Source: a virus
IMG/VR virus record: IMGVR_UViG_3300046007_006301
Location: 1-28,642 of that record
Length of the DNA: 28,642 bases
Direction: 5' to 3' (one strand)
Shown in pieces: positions 4,350 to 28,528 of the stretch. Every line of letters starts with the position of its first letter. Positions within the stretch are counted from its first letter, which is position 1. The position numbers and the translations under genes are program-made. The notes below the pieces were generated by a model, which had not been told where the DNA came from, made no database searches, and saw nothing but the letters and a program-made list of their open reading frames with translations.

Positions 4350-4610
4350 TCACAAACCTAGCCAATTTTTCTTTGGAGGTTCAATTTTCATCATTTCGTT
4401 TTTACATTTGTCTGCAAGTGAAATAGCGCCCACCTTAGCGCCTTGATCGCCACCTTTAGCAATTTCAGTGACAGCTGCAAAGCAAGCAGTCTGTGCCATT
4501 GTACTGTCCTTCGATATAGATTTTGCTGTGTCATAATATAATTGTTCCTTAGTTGTTGAAGCACATCCAGCTAATGCTAAAGCAGCGGCTAATATAATTA
4601 TAGCCTTCAT
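4350..4610 (-). CDS. Small predicted lipoprotein
   Basis: An 86-residue protein with a signal peptide MKAIIILAAALALAGC whose lipobox LAGC puts the lipid-bearing cysteine at residue 16, followed by a short mature domain with two more cysteines (C43 and C69). Its start overlaps the stop of the spanin lipoprotein gene by 4 nt. It would be exported and anchored to a membrane. The function is unknown; its place directly after the spanin pair suggests a part in lysis or envelope modification. It is followed by a 28-nt gap before nrdA. Confidence 0.75.
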   Translation of the reverse strand: MKAIIILAAALALAGCASTTKEQLYYDTAKSISKDSTMAQTACFAAVTEIAKGGDQGAKVGAISLADKCKNEMMKIEPPKKNWLGL

Positions 4611-4891
4611 TTCTTGCCACCTTTCTCATAGATTTGCTTTTGTTCTACATACCACTTGTTCCAACCCTCATTCTTCAAGGAGCAATCATAGTATAATGTA
4701 TAATTTTCTACAACTGCTTTGAGCAACTCTGTAATAGCAACTTGATTGCCTTCGATTGTTTTTAATTCTGGGCAAGGTTGTTGGAGTTCTTTTATAGCAT
4801 CAGGGAATTTTGGCTTAGCTGGCATGAATCTTTCTATCATAGCACAACTTGCAATAAAAACTGAAAGGAGAGCTACTAATAGTAATCTCAT
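4607..4891 (-). CDS. Rz1-like outer-membrane spanin lipoprotein (o-spanin)
   Basis: A 94-residue lipoprotein with the signal sequence MRLLLVALLSVFIASC and lipid cysteine at residue 16. The mature part has the spacing seen in Rz1-type proteins: a proline/cysteine segment (PCPELKTIEG), a helix with LLKAVVENYTLYYDCS, and a C-terminal NEGWNKWYVEQK stretch. It lies directly after, and overlaps by 4 nt, a protein with membrane helices and a long periplasmic coiled coil, which is the normal arrangement of an i-spanin/o-spanin pair. The pair would fuse the inner and outer membranes in the last step of lysis. The assignment rests on topology and context rather than on a strong motif. Confidence 0.7.
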   Translation of the reverse strand: MRLLLVALLSVFIASCAMIERFMPAKPKFPDAIKELQQPCPELKTIEGNQVAITELLKAVVENYTLYYDCSLKNEGWNKWYVEQKQIYEKGGKK

Positions 4892-12087: not shown

Positions 12088-12774
12088 CTAGGTTCCTAAG
12101 CCTGCAGAAACAGCAAGAGCTTTAACCTTAATTTTTTGATCTTCTATAGTAAGCCAGCCCATACTTAGTAATGTATAATATCGAATGGTATTAGGAAATA
12201 CCCTCAATCTATCACCTTTTTCATAATTAGAATGAGCAGCATTTACAGAAACAGCATTAGGATTCCATAAATCTATCATACCTTTAATAGCTTTTCCTCC
12301 CAATTTAGCTGCCACTCCATTGTAAAAAGGATGTGTTTTTGCTATCTTATGCTTTTCGGCAGCTTTTTTGCCACCTTTACTATGCCAATCAAGTTTTTGA
12401 CTATTATTTTTGAAATTATAAGAAGCTTTACCACCTTTTTTACCTGCTTCTGATTGATGTTTTAAAAATTTTTCTATATCATATTTTTTAAGACCATCTA
12501 AATAACTTTTACCACCATACGCCATGTTATATGACTTTGGATCCTTCACCACATCTTCATTTACTATTATTTTTTCTAATTCCCACAAATCTTCTTTTGA
12601 AAAAGATTCTGCAATTATTTCCTTTGTAAAAACATGTGCGCCGTATTTACTAATGGCATTGCAAATAGCTCTGCCGCTACCCATATATCCATCATCTATA
12701 TTATTGGTAGAGTGTCTACCAATATAGTAACGTCCATTTATAGTATTTGTTATTTTATAGATCAAGTATTTCAT
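12088..12774 (-). CDS. GIY-YIG homing endonuclease
   Basis: A 228-residue free-standing homing endonuclease. The N-terminal nuclease domain shows the two signature strands as LIYKITN and YYIGRHST about 13 residues apart, the following Arg/His, and a conserved Glu in LWELEKIIV. The C-terminal half carries GKKGGKASY, SKGGKKAAEKHK and similar Gly-Lys-Lys helices of the NUMOD type used for DNA binding. Its ATG overlaps the stop of the large structural gene (ATGA). Its last eight residues, AVSAGLGT, closely match the end of that upstream protein (TVSAGLGTK), as if the tail came from the host gene's own 3' end. Confidence 0.92.
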   Translation of the reverse strand: MKYLIYKITNTINGRYYIGRHSTNNIDDGYMGSGRAICNAISKYGAHVFTKEIIAESFSKEDLWELEKIIVNEDVVKDPKSYNMAYGGKSYLDGLKKYDIEKFLKHQSEAGKKGGKASYNFKNNSQKLDWHSKGGKKAAEKHKIAKTHPFYNGVAAKLGGKAIKGMIDLWNPNAVSVNAAHSNYEKGDRLRVFPNTIRYYTLLSMGWLTIEDQKIKVKALAVSAGLGT

Positions 12775-24401: not shown

Positions 24402-24503
24402 TTAAAATCTACGCTTTCTCCACTTATATATAGCCGGACCAACCATACCGATTGTTATTAAAACAACTACACCTGAAACAATCAGTAGTTTGGTTTCAAT
24501 CAT
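24402..24503 (-). CDS. 33-residue single-span membrane peptide
   Basis: A short frame starts in an ATGA overlap with the pstS stop and encodes 33 residues: a short polar start (MIETK), one hydrophobic span of about 20 residues (LLIVSGVVVLITIGMVGPAI), and a basic end YKWRKRRF that would stay in the cytoplasm. The next gene's AAGGAG overlaps its stop codon. Tight coupling on both sides makes it likely to be real although it is very small. It may act with PstS or the membrane; the function is unknown. Confidence 0.65.
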   Translation of the reverse strand: MIETKLLIVSGVVVLITIGMVGPAIYKWRKRRF

Positions 24504-25507
24504 TTAATTTGACTCCAGACCTTTTGTCTAATTTGATTCTGTAGGGTATCTGGTAAATGAACATAGTCAAGTTCTTCACTTAACTTTTTACCGTTCTTAA
24601 ATGCCCAATCGAAAAATTTTATTACTTCAGCACTTGCCTTTTTATCAACAGGTTCTTTATACATGATAATGAATGAAGCTGTAGTAACAGGCCAGGTATC
24701 TTTGCCGCCCTGATTTACGATGCTCAGTCCCATACCTGGGACACTGAACCAGTCCGCACCTGCCGCTGCTGCAGCAAATGTCGCATCATCTGGGTCGACG
24801 AAGTTACCTGATTTGTTTTGTAGTTTCATGTATGTCATATTATTTTTCTTGACATACGCATATTCAACATAACCAATACTACCTTTAATTCTATTTACAT
24901 TAGCAGCAACTCCTTCATTGCCTTTACCGCCAACAGAGCTTGTAGCAGGCCATTTTACTGCTGCTCCTCGTCCAACTCGTTTCTCCCACTCTGGGCTAAC
25001 ACTAGTGAGATAATCAGTCCAATTAAAAGTAGTACCAGATCCATCAGCTCGATGAACCACTGTAATGTTGGTGTTAGGGAGGGATTTCCCAGGATTAAGT
25101 TTAACAAGTTTATCATCGTTCCATTTGGTTATGTTTCCCATGAACACTTCGGCAAGCACAGGTCCTGTAATTCGAAGTTCACCGGGCTTGAATCCATCCA
25201 AATTAAAGACAGGGACAGTGCCACCAATGATAGCTGGAAATTGTATTTGACCCAATTTTTCCAAATCTTCACCCTTAACTGGTGCATCACTTGCTCCAAA
25301 GGCTACAGTTTTATTGTTGATTTGTCTTATGCCGCCAGAACTACCGATGCTTTGATAGTTGAGAGTGTTGCCAGTAGCTTTGTGATATGCTTCTGCCCAT
25401 TTGGCATAAATTGGATATGGAAAGGTAGCACCTGCTCCAGTAATTTCTGCAGCATTAGCGCTAAGGGAAAATAGTGGGAAAAATAAAATTGCGAATAGTT
25501 TTTTCAT
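24500..25507 (-). CDS. pstS: Phosphate-binding protein PstS
   Basis: Periplasmic phosphate-binding component of the Pst ABC transporter. It has a signal peptide (MKKLFAILFFPLFSLSANAA), then ITGAGATFPYPIYAKWAEAY, SIGSSGGIRQI, FGASDAPVKGEDLEKL and VVHRADGSGTTFNWTDYL, the phosphate-contacting segments of the family. At 335 residues it has normal length. No pstCAB genes follow, so it must work with the host permease, as in other marine phages that carry pstS to raise phosphate uptake. A Pho-box-like repeat lies 36-53 nt before the start, and AAGGAG gives a strong ribosome site. Confidence 0.96.
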   Translation of the reverse strand: MKKLFAILFFPLFSLSANAAEITGAGATFPYPIYAKWAEAYHKATGNTLNYQSIGSSGGIRQINNKTVAFGASDAPVKGEDLEKLGQIQFPAIIGGTVPVFNLDGFKPGELRITGPVLAEVFMGNITKWNDDKLVKLNPGKSLPNTNITVVHRADGSGTTFNWTDYLTSVSPEWEKRVGRGAAVKWPATSSVGGKGNEGVAANVNRIKGSIGYVEYAYVKKNNMTYMKLQNKSGNFVDPDDATFAAAAAGADWFSVPGMGLSIVNQGGKDTWPVTTASFIIMYKEPVDKKASAEVIKFFDWAFKNGKKLSEELDYVHLPDTLQNQIRQKVWSQIK

Positions 25508-26341: not shown

Positions 26342-26417
26342 TGGTACCGGGTAGTGGGATCGAACCACTGACCCTCTGCTTGTAAGGCAGACGCTCGTAC
26401 CTCTGAGCTAACCCGGT
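26342..26417 (-). tRNA. tRNA-Val (UAC)
   Basis: Cloverleaf with acceptor ACCGGGT/ACCCGGT, anticodon stem TCTGC/GCAGA around CTTACAA (anticodon TAC), T-arm AGTGG-TTCGATC-CCACT, and encoded CCA. It has normal D- and T-loop signatures. It is the last tRNA of the cluster. Confidence 0.95.
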
Positions 26418-26433
26418 GCAGTGTTATATCACC

Positions 26434-26441
26434 TATTTATA
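26434..26441 (-). promoter_or_regulatory. Exact T4-late-type octamer TATAAATA
   Basis: TATAAATA on the minus strand fills part of the 24-nt spacer between the tRNA-Gly CCA and the 5' end of tRNA-Val. It could be an internal late promoter for tRNA-Val and the 2OG oxygenase. A chance match in AT-rich DNA is quite possible. Confidence 0.35.
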
Positions 26442-26517
26442 TGGAGCGGACGATCGGATTCGAACCGACGACATTTTGCTTGGCAAGCAAACATTCTACC
26501 AACTGAATTACGTCCGC
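26442..26517 (-). tRNA. tRNA-Gly (GCC)
   Basis: Cloverleaf with acceptor GCGGACG/CGTCCGC, discriminator T, encoded CCA, anticodon stem TTTGC/GCAAA around TTGCCAA (anticodon GCC), and T-arm GTCGG-TTCGAAT-CCGAT. D- and T-loops are canonical. One nucleotide separates it from the preceding tRNA-Leu. Confidence 0.95.
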
Positions 26518-26518
26518 A

Positions 26519-26595
26519 TGGTGCCCCAGAGGAGACTCGAACTCCTAAAATTTGGCTTCTAAGACCAACACGTATACCAGTTCCGTCACCGGGGC
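26519..26595 (-). tRNA. tRNA-Leu (UAG) with short variable loop
   Basis: Acceptor GCCCCGG/CTGGGGC (one G-U pair), anticodon stem TTGGT/GCCAA around CTTAGAA (anticodon TAG), T-arm AGGAG-TTCGAGT-CTCCT and encoded CCA. The variable region is only ATTTT, whereas tRNA-Leu normally has a long variable arm, so its charging as Leu is not assured. The D-loop contains the usual GG. Confidence 0.85.
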
Positions 26596-26600
26596 ATTAC

Positions 26601-26676
26601 TGGTCTCGGGTGAGGGTCACGATCCCCCGACCTCCTGTTCCCAAAACAGGCATTCTACCAACTGAACTAACCCGAG
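26601..26676 (-). tRNA. tRNA-Pro (UGG)
   Basis: Acceptor CTCGGGT/ACCCGAG with encoded CCA, anticodon stem CCTGT/ACAGG around TTTGGGA (anticodon TGG), and T-arm GGGGG-ATCGTGA-CCCTC. The T-loop starts AT instead of TT, a mild departure. Its first base follows the TAA stop of the release-factor-like gene with no spacer. Confidence 0.92.
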
Positions 26677-27081
26677 TTATTTATCTAAAAAACTAAAATC
26701 AAATTTATCTGGATCATCTACTAATTGATCAATAGTTACTTCTGTCCATTTGCCGTCTATTTTAACTTCGACTTTTACTTTATTTAAGCTTGCTTGTATT
26801 TGCCGCTCAACTTCGTAATGCTCACCTGTTCGCTTCATGTATTCTATATGTATCCATTTCTTAAACTTATCAGTTTCAGCCATCTTACGAAAGGCTTCTT
26901 TTCTATTATCAAGTTGGCTACGACTAGATTCACTATAGCCATGGGCTCCAGATGCTTTATGTATACAATGGACAGCGCTAGACGTCTTGTTGCGTTTCTG
27001 TCCACCAGCACCGGTGCCCCTGGTATAGGACCACTCACAGTCTTTGGCAGTAATACTAAAAAAAGGTTCTTTATTATTCAT
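26677..27081 (-). CDS. Class I release-factor-like protein with GGQ motif (ArfB/PrfH-like)
   Basis: A 134-residue protein holding the catalytic domain of class I release factors: SYTRGTGAGGQKRNKTSSAV contains G26-G27-Q28, and SRSQLDNRKEAFRKM is the helix that follows in RF-type proteins. It lacks the codon-recognition domains of RF1/RF2, as ArfB and similar ribosome-rescue hydrolases do. It probably releases peptides from stalled ribosomes, useful when host mRNA is degraded; this is inferred. The gene is squeezed between tRNA-Phe and tRNA-Pro. Its ATG is only 6 nt after the tRNA-Phe CCA and has no Shine-Dalgarno outside that tRNA. Confidence 0.88.
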   Translation of the reverse strand: MNNKEPFFSITAKDCEWSYTRGTGAGGQKRNKTSSAVHCIHKASGAHGYSESSRSQLDNRKEAFRKMAETDKFKKWIHIEYMKRTGEHYEVERQIQASLNKVKVEVKIDGKWTEVTIDQLVDDPDKFDFSFLDK

Positions 27082-27087
27082 GATAGT

Positions 27088-27163
27088 TGGTGCCCTCTTC
27101 TGGTTACGCTCCAGACTCCCACGCTCTTCAGGCGTATGCTTTCACTAGATTAGCTTAGAGGGC
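27088..27163 (-). tRNA. tRNA-Phe (GAA), divergent elbow
   Basis: Acceptor GCCCTCT/AGAGGGC with encoded CCA, anticodon stem TACGC/GCGTG around CTGAAGA (anticodon GAA), and T-stem TCTGG/CCAGA. The T-loop is AGCGTAA rather than TTCRANN and the D-loop (AATCTAGTGAA) has no GG, so the usual D-loop/T-loop contacts cannot form. Its first G is also the last base of the TAG stop of the upstream gene. Confidence 0.78.
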
Positions 27164-27804
27164 TATTTCATTAATCGTTTAACAAATTTAAGTAATAATT
27201 GATGATGCCTATACTCATGCCAATAAGGTTTTAAATATTTTTTCTTATACCAGTAAATATCACTCTCTGGATGAGGACCAATAACACCTATATTATTTTG
27301 TATAATTGCTGCTGGATCACCATTGCTATAAGTAGCAATTGTTTCAAAGTTATTAGAATCACCTAATAAACTACATCCATCGTAAAAAAACATTGCCTCA
27401 TTATGACCTTCCCAATTAACATTTACTACTGTACTATAACTTCTATTTGTCTCAGCATTAGGTCTCTTAATATATTGAACAGGATTCACATCTTCTAGTA
27501 TGTTGAAATAATGAGGGCCTGCCCAATAAGCACCCATACAAATACCAAGATATCGTTTCCCTTTAGCAATTTGATTTTGTATCACATCTTGCTTATTAGC
27601 TAATAACTTGTAATATCTATCACTATCACCCATACCACCGGGAAACGCTATCATTTTATACTTACTTAGTATAGCATCTGTCAATTCATCTCTGTTAATT
27701 ACGTCGACATCGAATGCCATACTTAATGATCTTAAGATGCCATGAGCACACTCTACACTGCACTCAGGATGATTGTGAAATAACGCTATACGGTGTTGTT
27801 TCAT
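27163..27804 (-). CDS. Glutamine amidotransferase-like protein (BPL_N type)
   Basis: A 213-residue class I glutamine amidotransferase-fold protein. Nucleophile C89 lies in the elbow YLGICMGAYWAG, an oxyanion-type strand in AFPGGMGDSDRYY, and the His/Glu pair H178 and E180 in IGVIGPHPESD. The GICxGAYWAG form is typical of the BPL_N family (related to the N-terminal domain of eukaryotic biotin-protein ligase). The substrate is unknown; amide transfer, or a protease-like use of the fold, is possible. The TAG stop shares its G with tRNA-Phe. A perfect hairpin (27807-27822) lies just before the ATG, with no clear Shine-Dalgarno. Confidence 0.8.
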   Translation of the reverse strand: MKQHRIALFHNHPECSVECAHGILRSLSMAFDVDVINRDELTDAILSKYKMIAFPGGMGDSDRYYKLLANKQDVIQNQIAKGKRYLGICMGAYWAGPHYFNILEDVNPVQYIKRPNAETNRSYSTVVNVNWEGHNEAMFFYDGCSLLGDSNNFETIATYSNGDPAAIIQNNIGVIGPHPESDIYWYKKKYLKPYWHEYRHHQLLLKFVKRLMK

Positions 27805-27806
27805 TT

Positions 27807-27822
27807 AACCATATTTATGGTT
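27807..27822 (-). repeat. Perfect hairpin between the structured RNA and a start codon
   Basis: AACCAT and ATGGTT flank AAAT on the minus strand, directly after the last base of the structured RNA and 2 nt before the ATG of the amidotransferase gene. It may mark the 3' border of the RNA or control translation. It contains CATAAATA, one base from the T4 late motif. No T-tract follows, so it is not a classical terminator. Confidence 0.55.
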
Positions 27823-27952
27823 GATCCATTGTGGGAGGGATTTCGAAACCCTCATTTCGCTGCACTCTAACCTCTAAGCTACTGCCCCTGTGGAGCAGGT
27901 GGGACTCGAACCCACGCCTCGCTGCGTGTTATCCATTACACTACCACGGATC
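27823..27952 (-). other. Double tRNA-like module with swapped acceptor strands
   Basis: Read 5' to 3' on the minus strand this is: strand GATCCGTGG; TA; D-arm GTGT-8-ACAC; connector GCAGCGAGGC; T-arm GTGGG-TTCGAGT-CCCAC; strand CTGCTCC; loop ACA; strand GGGGCAG; TA; D-arm GCTT-8-GAGT; connector GCAGCGAAAT; T-arm GAGGG(T)-TTCGAAA-(T)CCCTC; strand CCAC-AAT-GGATC. Every base is used. CTGCTCC pairs with GGGGCAG (7 bp, one G-U) and GATCC-GTGG pairs with CCAC-AAT-GGATC. Both D-loops hold GG and both T-loops are TTCGANN, but neither half has an anticodon arm. It forms the 3' end of the structured RNA. Confidence 0.75.
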
Positions 27953-28439
27953 GCCGGAGTCATGACTTCCGACTATGGTACAGGTTAATTACTCCTAGAC
28001 CATATTGAAACACACTCATCATCTCTTTTTTGGACACCAGACCGGAGCGACCGGGGCTTGAAATGCCTGGCGATATCCTGCTTCGAAACAGGGATGGACA
28101 GAACGCCGCAGTGCCGAATGTGCTTCAATATGGTTGCCGGTTACAAAATCCGGCGTTACACTTTCGGAGTAACTGTTCTACCTATCCCGTCACCGACTTC
28201 GTTTAAGACTCGCCGCCTTTATACACGCTGATGGCCACGTGTTATGGTATCAGCTACTCTTTCCCAAGAGCCCCGATGTGAGGTATTGCCCTGTCCAGTG
28301 TCTTGTGTATCGGATGACACAGTCCTATCTTTTGTTTTACCCTGCCGGATGAATGGCCCGGAGGGAGGAAAAAAGAAACCTAAGACCCCTAACGCTGGTC
28401 TTGTCGCGCCTACTAATAACCGGCGTAGGACCGGGGATC
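27823..28439 (-). ncRNA. Large structured non-coding RNA (GOLLD/ROOL-like setting)
   Basis: About 617 nt without a credible gene, clearly more GC-rich than its surroundings and full of helices on the minus strand. A 19-bp helix joins 28134-28116 to 28017-27999; its two non-Watson-Crick positions are G-U pairs only if the minus strand is the RNA. Local hairpins include 28429-28409 (CCTAC/GTAGG), 28402-28382 (AAGACC/GGTCTT), 28365-28340 (CCCTCCGG/CCGG-C-AGGG), 28254-28227 (GCTGAT/ATCAGC), 28173-28155 (GTTAC/GTAAC), 28154-28136 (GCCGG/CCGGC), 28092-28077 (CCTG/CAGG) and 28054-28042 (CCGG-TCGCT-CCGG). It lies between tRNA-like elements. Size and phage tRNA context recall GOLLD and ROOL RNAs. Structured RNA is well supported; class membership is a guess. 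Confidence 0.8.
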
Positions 28440-28528
28440 TGGTGGGGACTAAAGGAATCGAACCTAACCGCCAACCACTCTACATATTATGGCAAGAGAT
28501 TTACAGTCTCCTGTAGAGAATAGCCCCC
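28440..28528 (-). tRNA. Degenerate tRNA-Tyr-like element (GUA)
   Basis: Acceptor GGGGGCT/AGTCCCC with encoded CCA, and anticodon stem GGAGA/TCTCT around CTGTAAA (anticodon GTA). Only 10 nt replace the D-arm region, the T-stem TTAGG/CCTTT has two T-T mismatches, and the variable region has 27 nt. CTCTACA (28518-28512) is fully complementary to TGTAGAG (28484-28478), giving a 7-bp helix outside the anticodon stem. It may be a repurposed tRNA that belongs to the adjoining structured RNA. Its first G is the last base of the upstream TAG stop. Confidence 0.55.

Follow-up and report, generated by a model that had tools for sequence, protein, structure and literature searches.

A mosaic of structured, partly tRNA-like RNA elements in phage tRNA arrays

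Results

Genomic context of the RNA region

The stretch of DNA analysed here, in the following called the window, comprises 28,642 nt and is a 28.6 kb virus record from a phage of freshwater origin. One of its proteins resembles proteins of cyanophages and of Pelagibacter phage HTVC008M with about 25–27% identity, which suggests a T4-like myovirus. A structured RNA region (28528–27807, minus strand) lies upstream of four ordinary tRNA genes on the same strand and in the same array (Pro, Leu, Gly and Val; 26342–26676, minus strand; called by ARAGORN and Rfam), from which it is separated by two protein genes. The gene that adjoins the RNA region occupies 27163–27804 (minus strand) with its ATG at 27804. 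Between this gene and the tRNA genes lies a gene for a 134-aa protein (26677–27081, minus strand) with an RF-1 (release factor) domain including GGQ (PF00472); judging from this domain, the protein could be a ribosome-rescue factor. The window also encodes a PstS-like phosphate-binding protein (24500–25507, minus strand; PF12849). PstS-like genes are auxiliary metabolic genes known from marine phages. The product of 12088–12774 (minus strand) looks by eye like a GIY-YIG homing endonuclease and had no Pfam match at an E-value of 0.001.

The GC content amounts to 0.51 at 28001–28500 compared to 0.27–0.42 in the rest of the window. The sole open reading frame of at least 60 aa in the RNA region is one antisense frame of 90 aa and the homologues of the region carry indels that are not divisible by three, so that a coding function was rejected. 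Folding of the minus strand was 2.5 sd below that of shuffled sequences (0/20 as good), whereas the plus strand folded no better than shuffles (z −0.9, 4/20 as good). The structured parts follow one another without gaps. A previous sequence-only reading had described a non-coding, GC-rich and hairpin-packed RNA at this place. The first two properties are borne out by the list of open reading frames, the indels and the GC profile, the third by the folding of the minus strand and by pair covariation in the four alignments introduced below. Its ends were also placed correctly: on the minus strand, 28528 is the first base of a Tyr-type tRNA-like element and 27823 the last base of a double tRNA-like module.

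Covariation of the proposed helices

The proposed pairs covary in four separate alignments that represent the 3′ domain of a core RNA (A1), the double tRNA-like module (A2), the Tyr-type element (A3) and the core RNA (A4). Conservation of the helices had been named beforehand as a test of the earlier reading, and it held in all four. None of 500 shuffles matched either the observed covariation score or the count of changes on both sides, and sliding the partners by 1–3 columns resulted in far worse covariation. The shuffle control alone overstates the significance because the alignments hold related sequences; the slide control agrees with it. The letters of the search patterns (GGACAGGG.., CACATT/AGTGTG and the linker loop) are invariant by construction, and therefore only positions outside of them count as covariation. 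The varying helix positions of A1 fall outside these letters. Overall, the structure of the RNA region is well beyond chance, and decayed tRNA genes are ruled out by the strength of the covariation.

The Tyr-type tRNA-like element

The region begins with a Tyr-type tRNA-like RNA of 89 nt (28440–28528, minus strand) that is supported by the covariation in A3. It consists of an 8-bp acceptor, an anticodon arm with the Tyr anticodon (GUA), a weak T arm and an encoded ACCA. A pseudoknot takes the place of the D arm: the strand on the D side forms a helix with a strand located past the anticodon arm, and this helix is crossed by a second one. In the 11 distinct sequences of A3 all cells (100%) are paired and 27 cells are changed on both sides; the D-side helix is compensated in full, for example from CUCUAC/GUAGAG to CCACUC/GAGUGG. 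The anticodon loop CUGUAAA and the ACCA are invariant in 11/11 sequences. We found 21 matching stretches among the loci, some of them without the core RNA, and in locus L010 the Tyr-type element stands alone without a core.

Like tRNA-Tyr, the element has the Tyr anticodon loop and the CCA end, so that 28528–28440 shows the GUA anticodon arm and the 3′ end of tRNA-Tyr; it departs from a canonical cloverleaf with a D arm. Viral Tyr-type tRNA-like structures likewise combine a Tyr anticodon loop, a CCA end and a pseudoknot. In contrast to both tRNA-Tyr and these viral structures, it is the D arm that has been exchanged for a pseudoknot here while the anticodon arm is kept, and the element is encoded in the tRNA array of a DNA phage, where ARAGORN does not recognise it. 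Neither ARAGORN nor the Rfam tRNA model made a call on 28528–28440.

The core RNA and the adjacent domain

The core RNA of about 195 nt extends from just past the ACCA of the Tyr-type element to GCUGAUACC (28246–28439, minus strand) and is supported by covariation in A4 and by the tRNAs that bound it in relatives. A4 contains 22 sequences of the window's own 5′ type and covers 41 pairs including a pseudoknot, with a covariation of 0.293 compared to 0.116 in shuffles. The 5′ pseudoknot (28409–28434, minus strand; helices 1 and 2 of A4, 99–100% paired) is formed by a CCGG/CCGG stem (28434–28431 with 28423–28420) and by the loop CCUAC (28429–28425), which pairs with GUAGG (28413–28409). Its helices are mostly invariant within the window's core type; in other core types the 5′ domain is of another kind and contains an equivalent helix of other sequence. 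The conserved 3′ domain (28243–28298, minus strand) comprises GGACAGGGYAAYNNCUCA and a subsequent helix of two parts, with GURGCC closing it. Among the 65 distinct sequences of A1, 88.7% of the cells pair and 171 cells are changed on both sides; the covariation of 0.597 compares to 0.141 in shuffles and at most 0.091 after sliding. The window scores 62.5 bits with the covariance model of this domain (R1).

The motif pattern of the 3′ domain was present in 87 IMG/VR contigs. Of 100 further contigs chosen solely by the arms of the clamp hairpin (see below), 33 contained a core according to the covariance model of this domain, which also detected one or two core copies in 13 of 18 long contigs. 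A same-strand tRNA ends at most 260 nt upstream of GGACAGGG in 42 of the 67 distinct core copies and the next tRNA begins 3–14 nt past the core in 26 of 67; the remaining copies are followed by other elements or by a gene. Since tRNAs bound the core copies in this way, the natural core unit has a length of about 195 nt and is set between tRNAs. A search of 84,980 bacterial and archaeal species genomes with the core pattern returned one match and no true bacterial locus; this single match reads as coding sequence and was taken as chance.

The core is followed by a domain of about 110 nt that has its GGCA end just before the ACCA of the clamp (28135–28245, minus strand) and is defined by sequence matches. 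Of its 24 matching stretches most are 98–100% identical and a few are divergent (69–86%), and it also occurs at loci without a nearby core.

The NCCA-clamp hairpin

We refer to the next element (27999–28134, minus strand) as the NCCA-clamp hairpin. In the window, an 18-bp stem of ACCAUAUUGAAGCACAUU (28134–28117) and AGUGUGUUUCAAUAUGGU (28016–27999) encloses an insert of 100 nt that has homologues in L152 and L172. The stem is marked by CACAUU/AGUGUG, and the last four nucleotides of the preceding RNA, normally NCCA, pair with UGGN at its far end. A motif scan of the loci yielded 203 distinct copies with very different inserts, and at least 120 stretches in IMG/VR matched the pattern of the arms. 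In the core-bearing loci we counted 61 clamp hairpins compared to 0 for each of 29 permuted motifs. The bare pattern CACATT..AGTGTG without arm pairing was discarded as too unspecific, given that a backwards control matches too.

The position of the clamp is tied to tRNAs. Of the clamps within 500 nt of a tRNA, 198/208 are on the strand of the tRNA, and when a same-strand tRNA ends at most 60 nt upstream, the clamp starts at or within two bases of the tRNA 3′ end in 69 of 70 cases. Counted pair by pair, the helix holds through position 18, which corresponds to the discriminator base, and falls to a background of 36% at position 19. As the scan tolerated one mismatch across the inner stem and left pairs 16–18 unforced, only these three pairs and the drop at position 19 are independent evidence. 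If the preceding RNA has no CCA end, the far arm of the clamp usually still pairs with the bases that are present. All G·U pairs of the clamp have the same orientation, which is what an RNA helix would be expected to show.

An alternative reading takes the clamps for mobile DNA elements, such as cassettes or small transposons with inverted repeats, that go into tRNA 3′ ends and whose RNA structure is a by-product. The close similarity of the arms around unrelated inserts, the many copies in each phage group and the fixed position at tRNA ends would suit it. We consider this very unlikely, as 95% of the clamps are on the tRNA's own strand, the arms carry their conserved letters on the inside and not at the tips, the arms change on both sides with pairing kept, and the one-way G·U pairs would be mismatches on the other strand. 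TIGR guide arrays were set aside because the clamps lack a repeat–spacer arrangement.

Several phages carry chains of 3–5 clamps over 470–770 nt. T-loop motifs were found in 22 of 259 clamp inserts, most inserts not being tRNA-like, and small self-cleaving ribozymes were not seen in the inserts by eye. The commonest insert contains the self-complementary GGUUCAUAUGAACC (L104, L105, L106 and about 22 other loci), a second candidate, by its sequence, for symmetric loop pairing beside the linker loop described below. No RNase III gene was found in the 18 long contigs of these phages; any cleavage of the stem would therefore require an enzyme of the host or an unknown one of the phage.

The linker and the double tRNA-like module

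A linker with two hairpins (27953–27998, minus strand), the pattern of which is present in 33 viral contigs, follows the clamp. Its second hairpin (27973–27953) exposes the self-complementary loop AGUCAUGAC at 27967–27959 on a stem that varies with compensation, and this loop is nearly unchanged; in L186 it reads AAUCAUGAC, leaving UCAUGA.

Behind this hairpin with the palindromic loop sits the double tRNA-like module (27823–27952, minus strand), in which two tRNA halves are combined in one chain in half-permuted form. The outer stem (27952–27944 with 27834–27823) encloses, in this order, D1 (27941–27926), T1 (27915–27899), an inner acceptor hairpin (27898–27882), D2 (27879–27864) and T2 (27853–27835). 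T-loop motifs are present and an anticodon arm is absent. In the 14 sequences of A2, 95.5% of the cells are paired, 64 cells have changed on both sides, and compensatory variation is seen in nearly all arms (covariation of 0.382 compared to 0.185 in shuffles). In 13 relatives a single tRNA-like fold takes the place of the double module after the same linker hairpin, and contigs without a detected core nearby carry double and single tRNA-like modules between clamps. The region closes with the short hairpin AACCAUAAAUAUGGUU (27807–27822, minus strand), whose sequence amounts to ACCA/UGGU pairing in its minimal form, immediately ahead of the next gene; it directly follows the core in L005, and in L006 and L007 this place is taken by longer forms.

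Phage tRNAs are able to counteract defences that cut tRNAs, and the tRNA-like parts might serve as decoys for host enzymes that attack or charge tRNAs, as in such a defence, or as a substitute for a tRNA-Tyr destroyed by the host. The Tyr-type element, which keeps the whole loop CUGUAAA of tRNA-Tyr and the encoded ACCA on a rebuilt body, would agree with this idea, as would the T-loop motifs in the double module and in some of the clamp inserts. However, the double module has no anticodon arm, few clamp inserts are tRNA-like, and both the core RNA and the clamp would be left unexplained, which makes such a role distinctly unlikely as an account of the region.

Recurrence of the parts in other phages

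A search with the gene that adjoins the RNA region led to 12 contigs, of which 8 have the core upstream of this gene. L002 contains the same RNA as the window and L003 a variant of it; L004, L005, L006, L007, L009 and L012 have the first part in common with the window and then differ. The whole order of parts is found in close relatives only, and the same pieces recur in different combinations and orders in many large phages. Rather than one conserved RNA of 700 nt, the region is thus a mosaic whose parts turn up individually in phage tRNA arrays. The assumption of a single large conserved RNA in the earlier reading did not stand, as each part also occurs elsewhere without the others.

A blastn search of 50,697 named phage records with the window RNA, two other core types, a common clamp and the double module revealed no convincing homologue. 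In the open-access full texts searched, we found no description of this core, of the clamp or of the double module. A further small element with the motif CUUAAACGAC, often within GGGG...CCCC ends, was observed near tRNAs (L002, L004, L010, L011, L012, L016, L053, L066, L087, L186 and others). It occurs in 19 contexts compared to 2–6 for shuffled motifs; 13 of the 19 are at most 600 nt from a tRNA, all 13 on the strand of the tRNA.

Relation to known RNA classes

Rfam 15 was scanned at gathering scores and, for the window, also at E ≤ 10; no family matches the parts of the RNA region. Neither ARAGORN nor Rfam at gathering scores called anything inside the region, and the ordinary families tmRNA, RNase P RNA and intron gave no significant match in the window. 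At E ≤ 10 there were partial or sub-threshold matches only, namely pieces of tmRNA, permuted tmRNA, YrlA and tRNA-Sec; RNase P RNA and group I intron were not among them. The tmRNA piece scored 19.1 bits of the 47 needed over 60 nt, and ARAGORN found no tmRNA in the window. YrlA scored 25.7 bits against a gathering score of 69. The membership in GOLLD or ROOL that had been considered for this RNA was not confirmed: the window matches neither model, even at E-values up to 10, and none was found above gathering scores in 20 homologous loci or at E-values up to 0.5–1 in 9 loci. In the 20 loci only tRNAs and one separate tmRNA exceeded gathering scores. The scan did detect a tmRNA in L022 and a group I intron in L021. 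The former (L022:6826–7224, minus strand), in a core-bearing phage contig, exceeds the cut-offs of the betaproteobacterial and permuted tmRNA models; the latter (L021:189–441, minus strand) lies beside tRNA genes in a core-bearing contig and reaches 49.3 bits with a cut-off of 50. L003 (about 2209–2312) and L009 (about 4560–4640) share a stretch GCAGACUAAAG...GAUAGUCCGGAC that by eye recalls P7 of group I introns and was not called by Rfam at gathering scores.

We therefore rejected an identity with GOLLD, ROOL, tmRNA, RNase P RNA or an intron on the basis of the Rfam scans. That the region is a divergent member of one of these classes, or a set of decayed tRNA genes, appears extremely improbable: the sub-threshold pieces speak for it, whereas nothing but tRNAs and the separate tmRNA exceeded gathering scores in the window or the 20 homologous loci, and decay is refuted by the strong covariation. 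The bacterial Y RNA YrlA (RF02553) shares with the inner half of the double module a permuted order, in which the T arm precedes and the D arm follows the acceptor hairpin. Apart from its low score, the module differs from YrlA in that no Y-RNA effector domain was seen in it and in that a second tRNA half is wrapped around the inner half. With tmRNA and permuted tmRNA (RF00023, RF04321) the window shares T-arm and acceptor fragments, but it reaches only 19–22 bits of 47, and the 60-nt match leaves out the entire central part of the model.

In setting, the window RNA comes closest to GOLLD and ROOL. GOLLD (RF02032), a large and structured RNA of phages, lies beside tRNA islands and is modular, one half being conserved and the other variable, and its linker sometimes contains tRNAs; ROOL (RF03087) is a phage and prophage RNA with pseudoknots, often near tRNA islands (PMC12286853). 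The window RNA is likewise phage-borne, structured, modular and beside tRNAs, and the region resembles ROOL in length, pseudoknots and proximity to tRNAs. Phage origin near tRNA islands is, however, weak evidence since this setting is common to several RNA classes. Besides the missing model matches, the window RNA differs from GOLLD, with its universally conserved 3′ and less conserved 5′ region, in that the conserved core comes first and the variable part last, and in that its parts recur separately; unlike ROOL, it has no single conserved fold of about 600 nt across relatives. GOLLD forms a 14-mer and ROOL an octameric RNA nanocage. What stands of the earlier proposal is its other option, a different class that has absorbed tRNA parts, supported by a structured phage RNA next to tRNAs with tRNA-like parts at both ends.

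Symmetric kissing loops join the copies of GOLLD, ROOL and OLE (PMC12286853), and the nearly invariant self-complementary loop AGUCAUGAC on a varying stem is the main point in favour of one ornate RNA of about 700 nt, similar to GOLLD and ROOL, that folds as a unit and joins itself by such loops into an RNA-only particle within infected cells. Its size, the phage origin, the place beside tRNAs, the contiguity of the structured parts without gaps and the clamp chains of several phages would also fit. Still, given the separate reuse of the parts in different orders, the restriction of the window's order to close relatives and the lack of a model match, we regard a single RNA of this kind as unlikely.

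Discussion

Comparison among relatives established the architecture, the helices, the conservation and the boundaries and separate reuse of the parts. The explanation that we favour, with slightly less than even confidence and by reasoning from sequence, is that several RNAs are cut from the transcript of the tRNA array and that hairpins control the maturation of their 3′ ends. The transcript would carry structured non-tRNA RNAs in series, i.e. the pseudoknotted Tyr mimic, the core of about 195 nt, the domain of about 110 nt, the clamp and the double tRNA-like module. Enzymes that mature tRNAs would cut it into separate RNAs with 3′ ends at CCA, and RNase P would cut before the next tRNA. More speculatively, the clamp might keep the NCCA end in a duplex until the stem is opened by a nuclease and might thereby hide or present this end and time or direct its maturation, while its loop could accommodate inserts of nearly any kind. 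During infection, the core and the tRNA mimics would then function as stable RNAs in their own right.

Several observations argue against this processing of a common transcript. Only 26 of 67 core copies stop directly in front of a tRNA, the conservation of the clamp's inner sequence exceeds what a simple double-stranded processing site would require, the 18 long contigs contain no RNase III gene, and the arrangement of the parts in one chain in the window also fits a single RNA.

Somewhat more tentatively, we propose that the tRNA arrays of large freshwater phages harbour an uncatalogued RNA system consisting of the core, tRNA mimics and an 18-bp clamp that pairs with the 3′ tail of any preceding RNA. 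The clamp may represent a new control of 3′-end maturation in polycistronic arrays and its loop a port for new RNA domains.

Although phage tRNA arrays tend to be regarded as lists of tRNAs, they also hold recurring, strongly covarying RNA families, none of which is in Rfam 15. The clamp helix ends precisely at the discriminator base of the tRNA, and this geometry turns the release of dozens of phage tRNAs and island RNAs from one transcript into a question that can be addressed in vitro. Finally, the findings suggest a possible origin of ornate island RNAs such as GOLLD and ROOL, which may have arisen by the joining of tRNA-like and hairpin modules.
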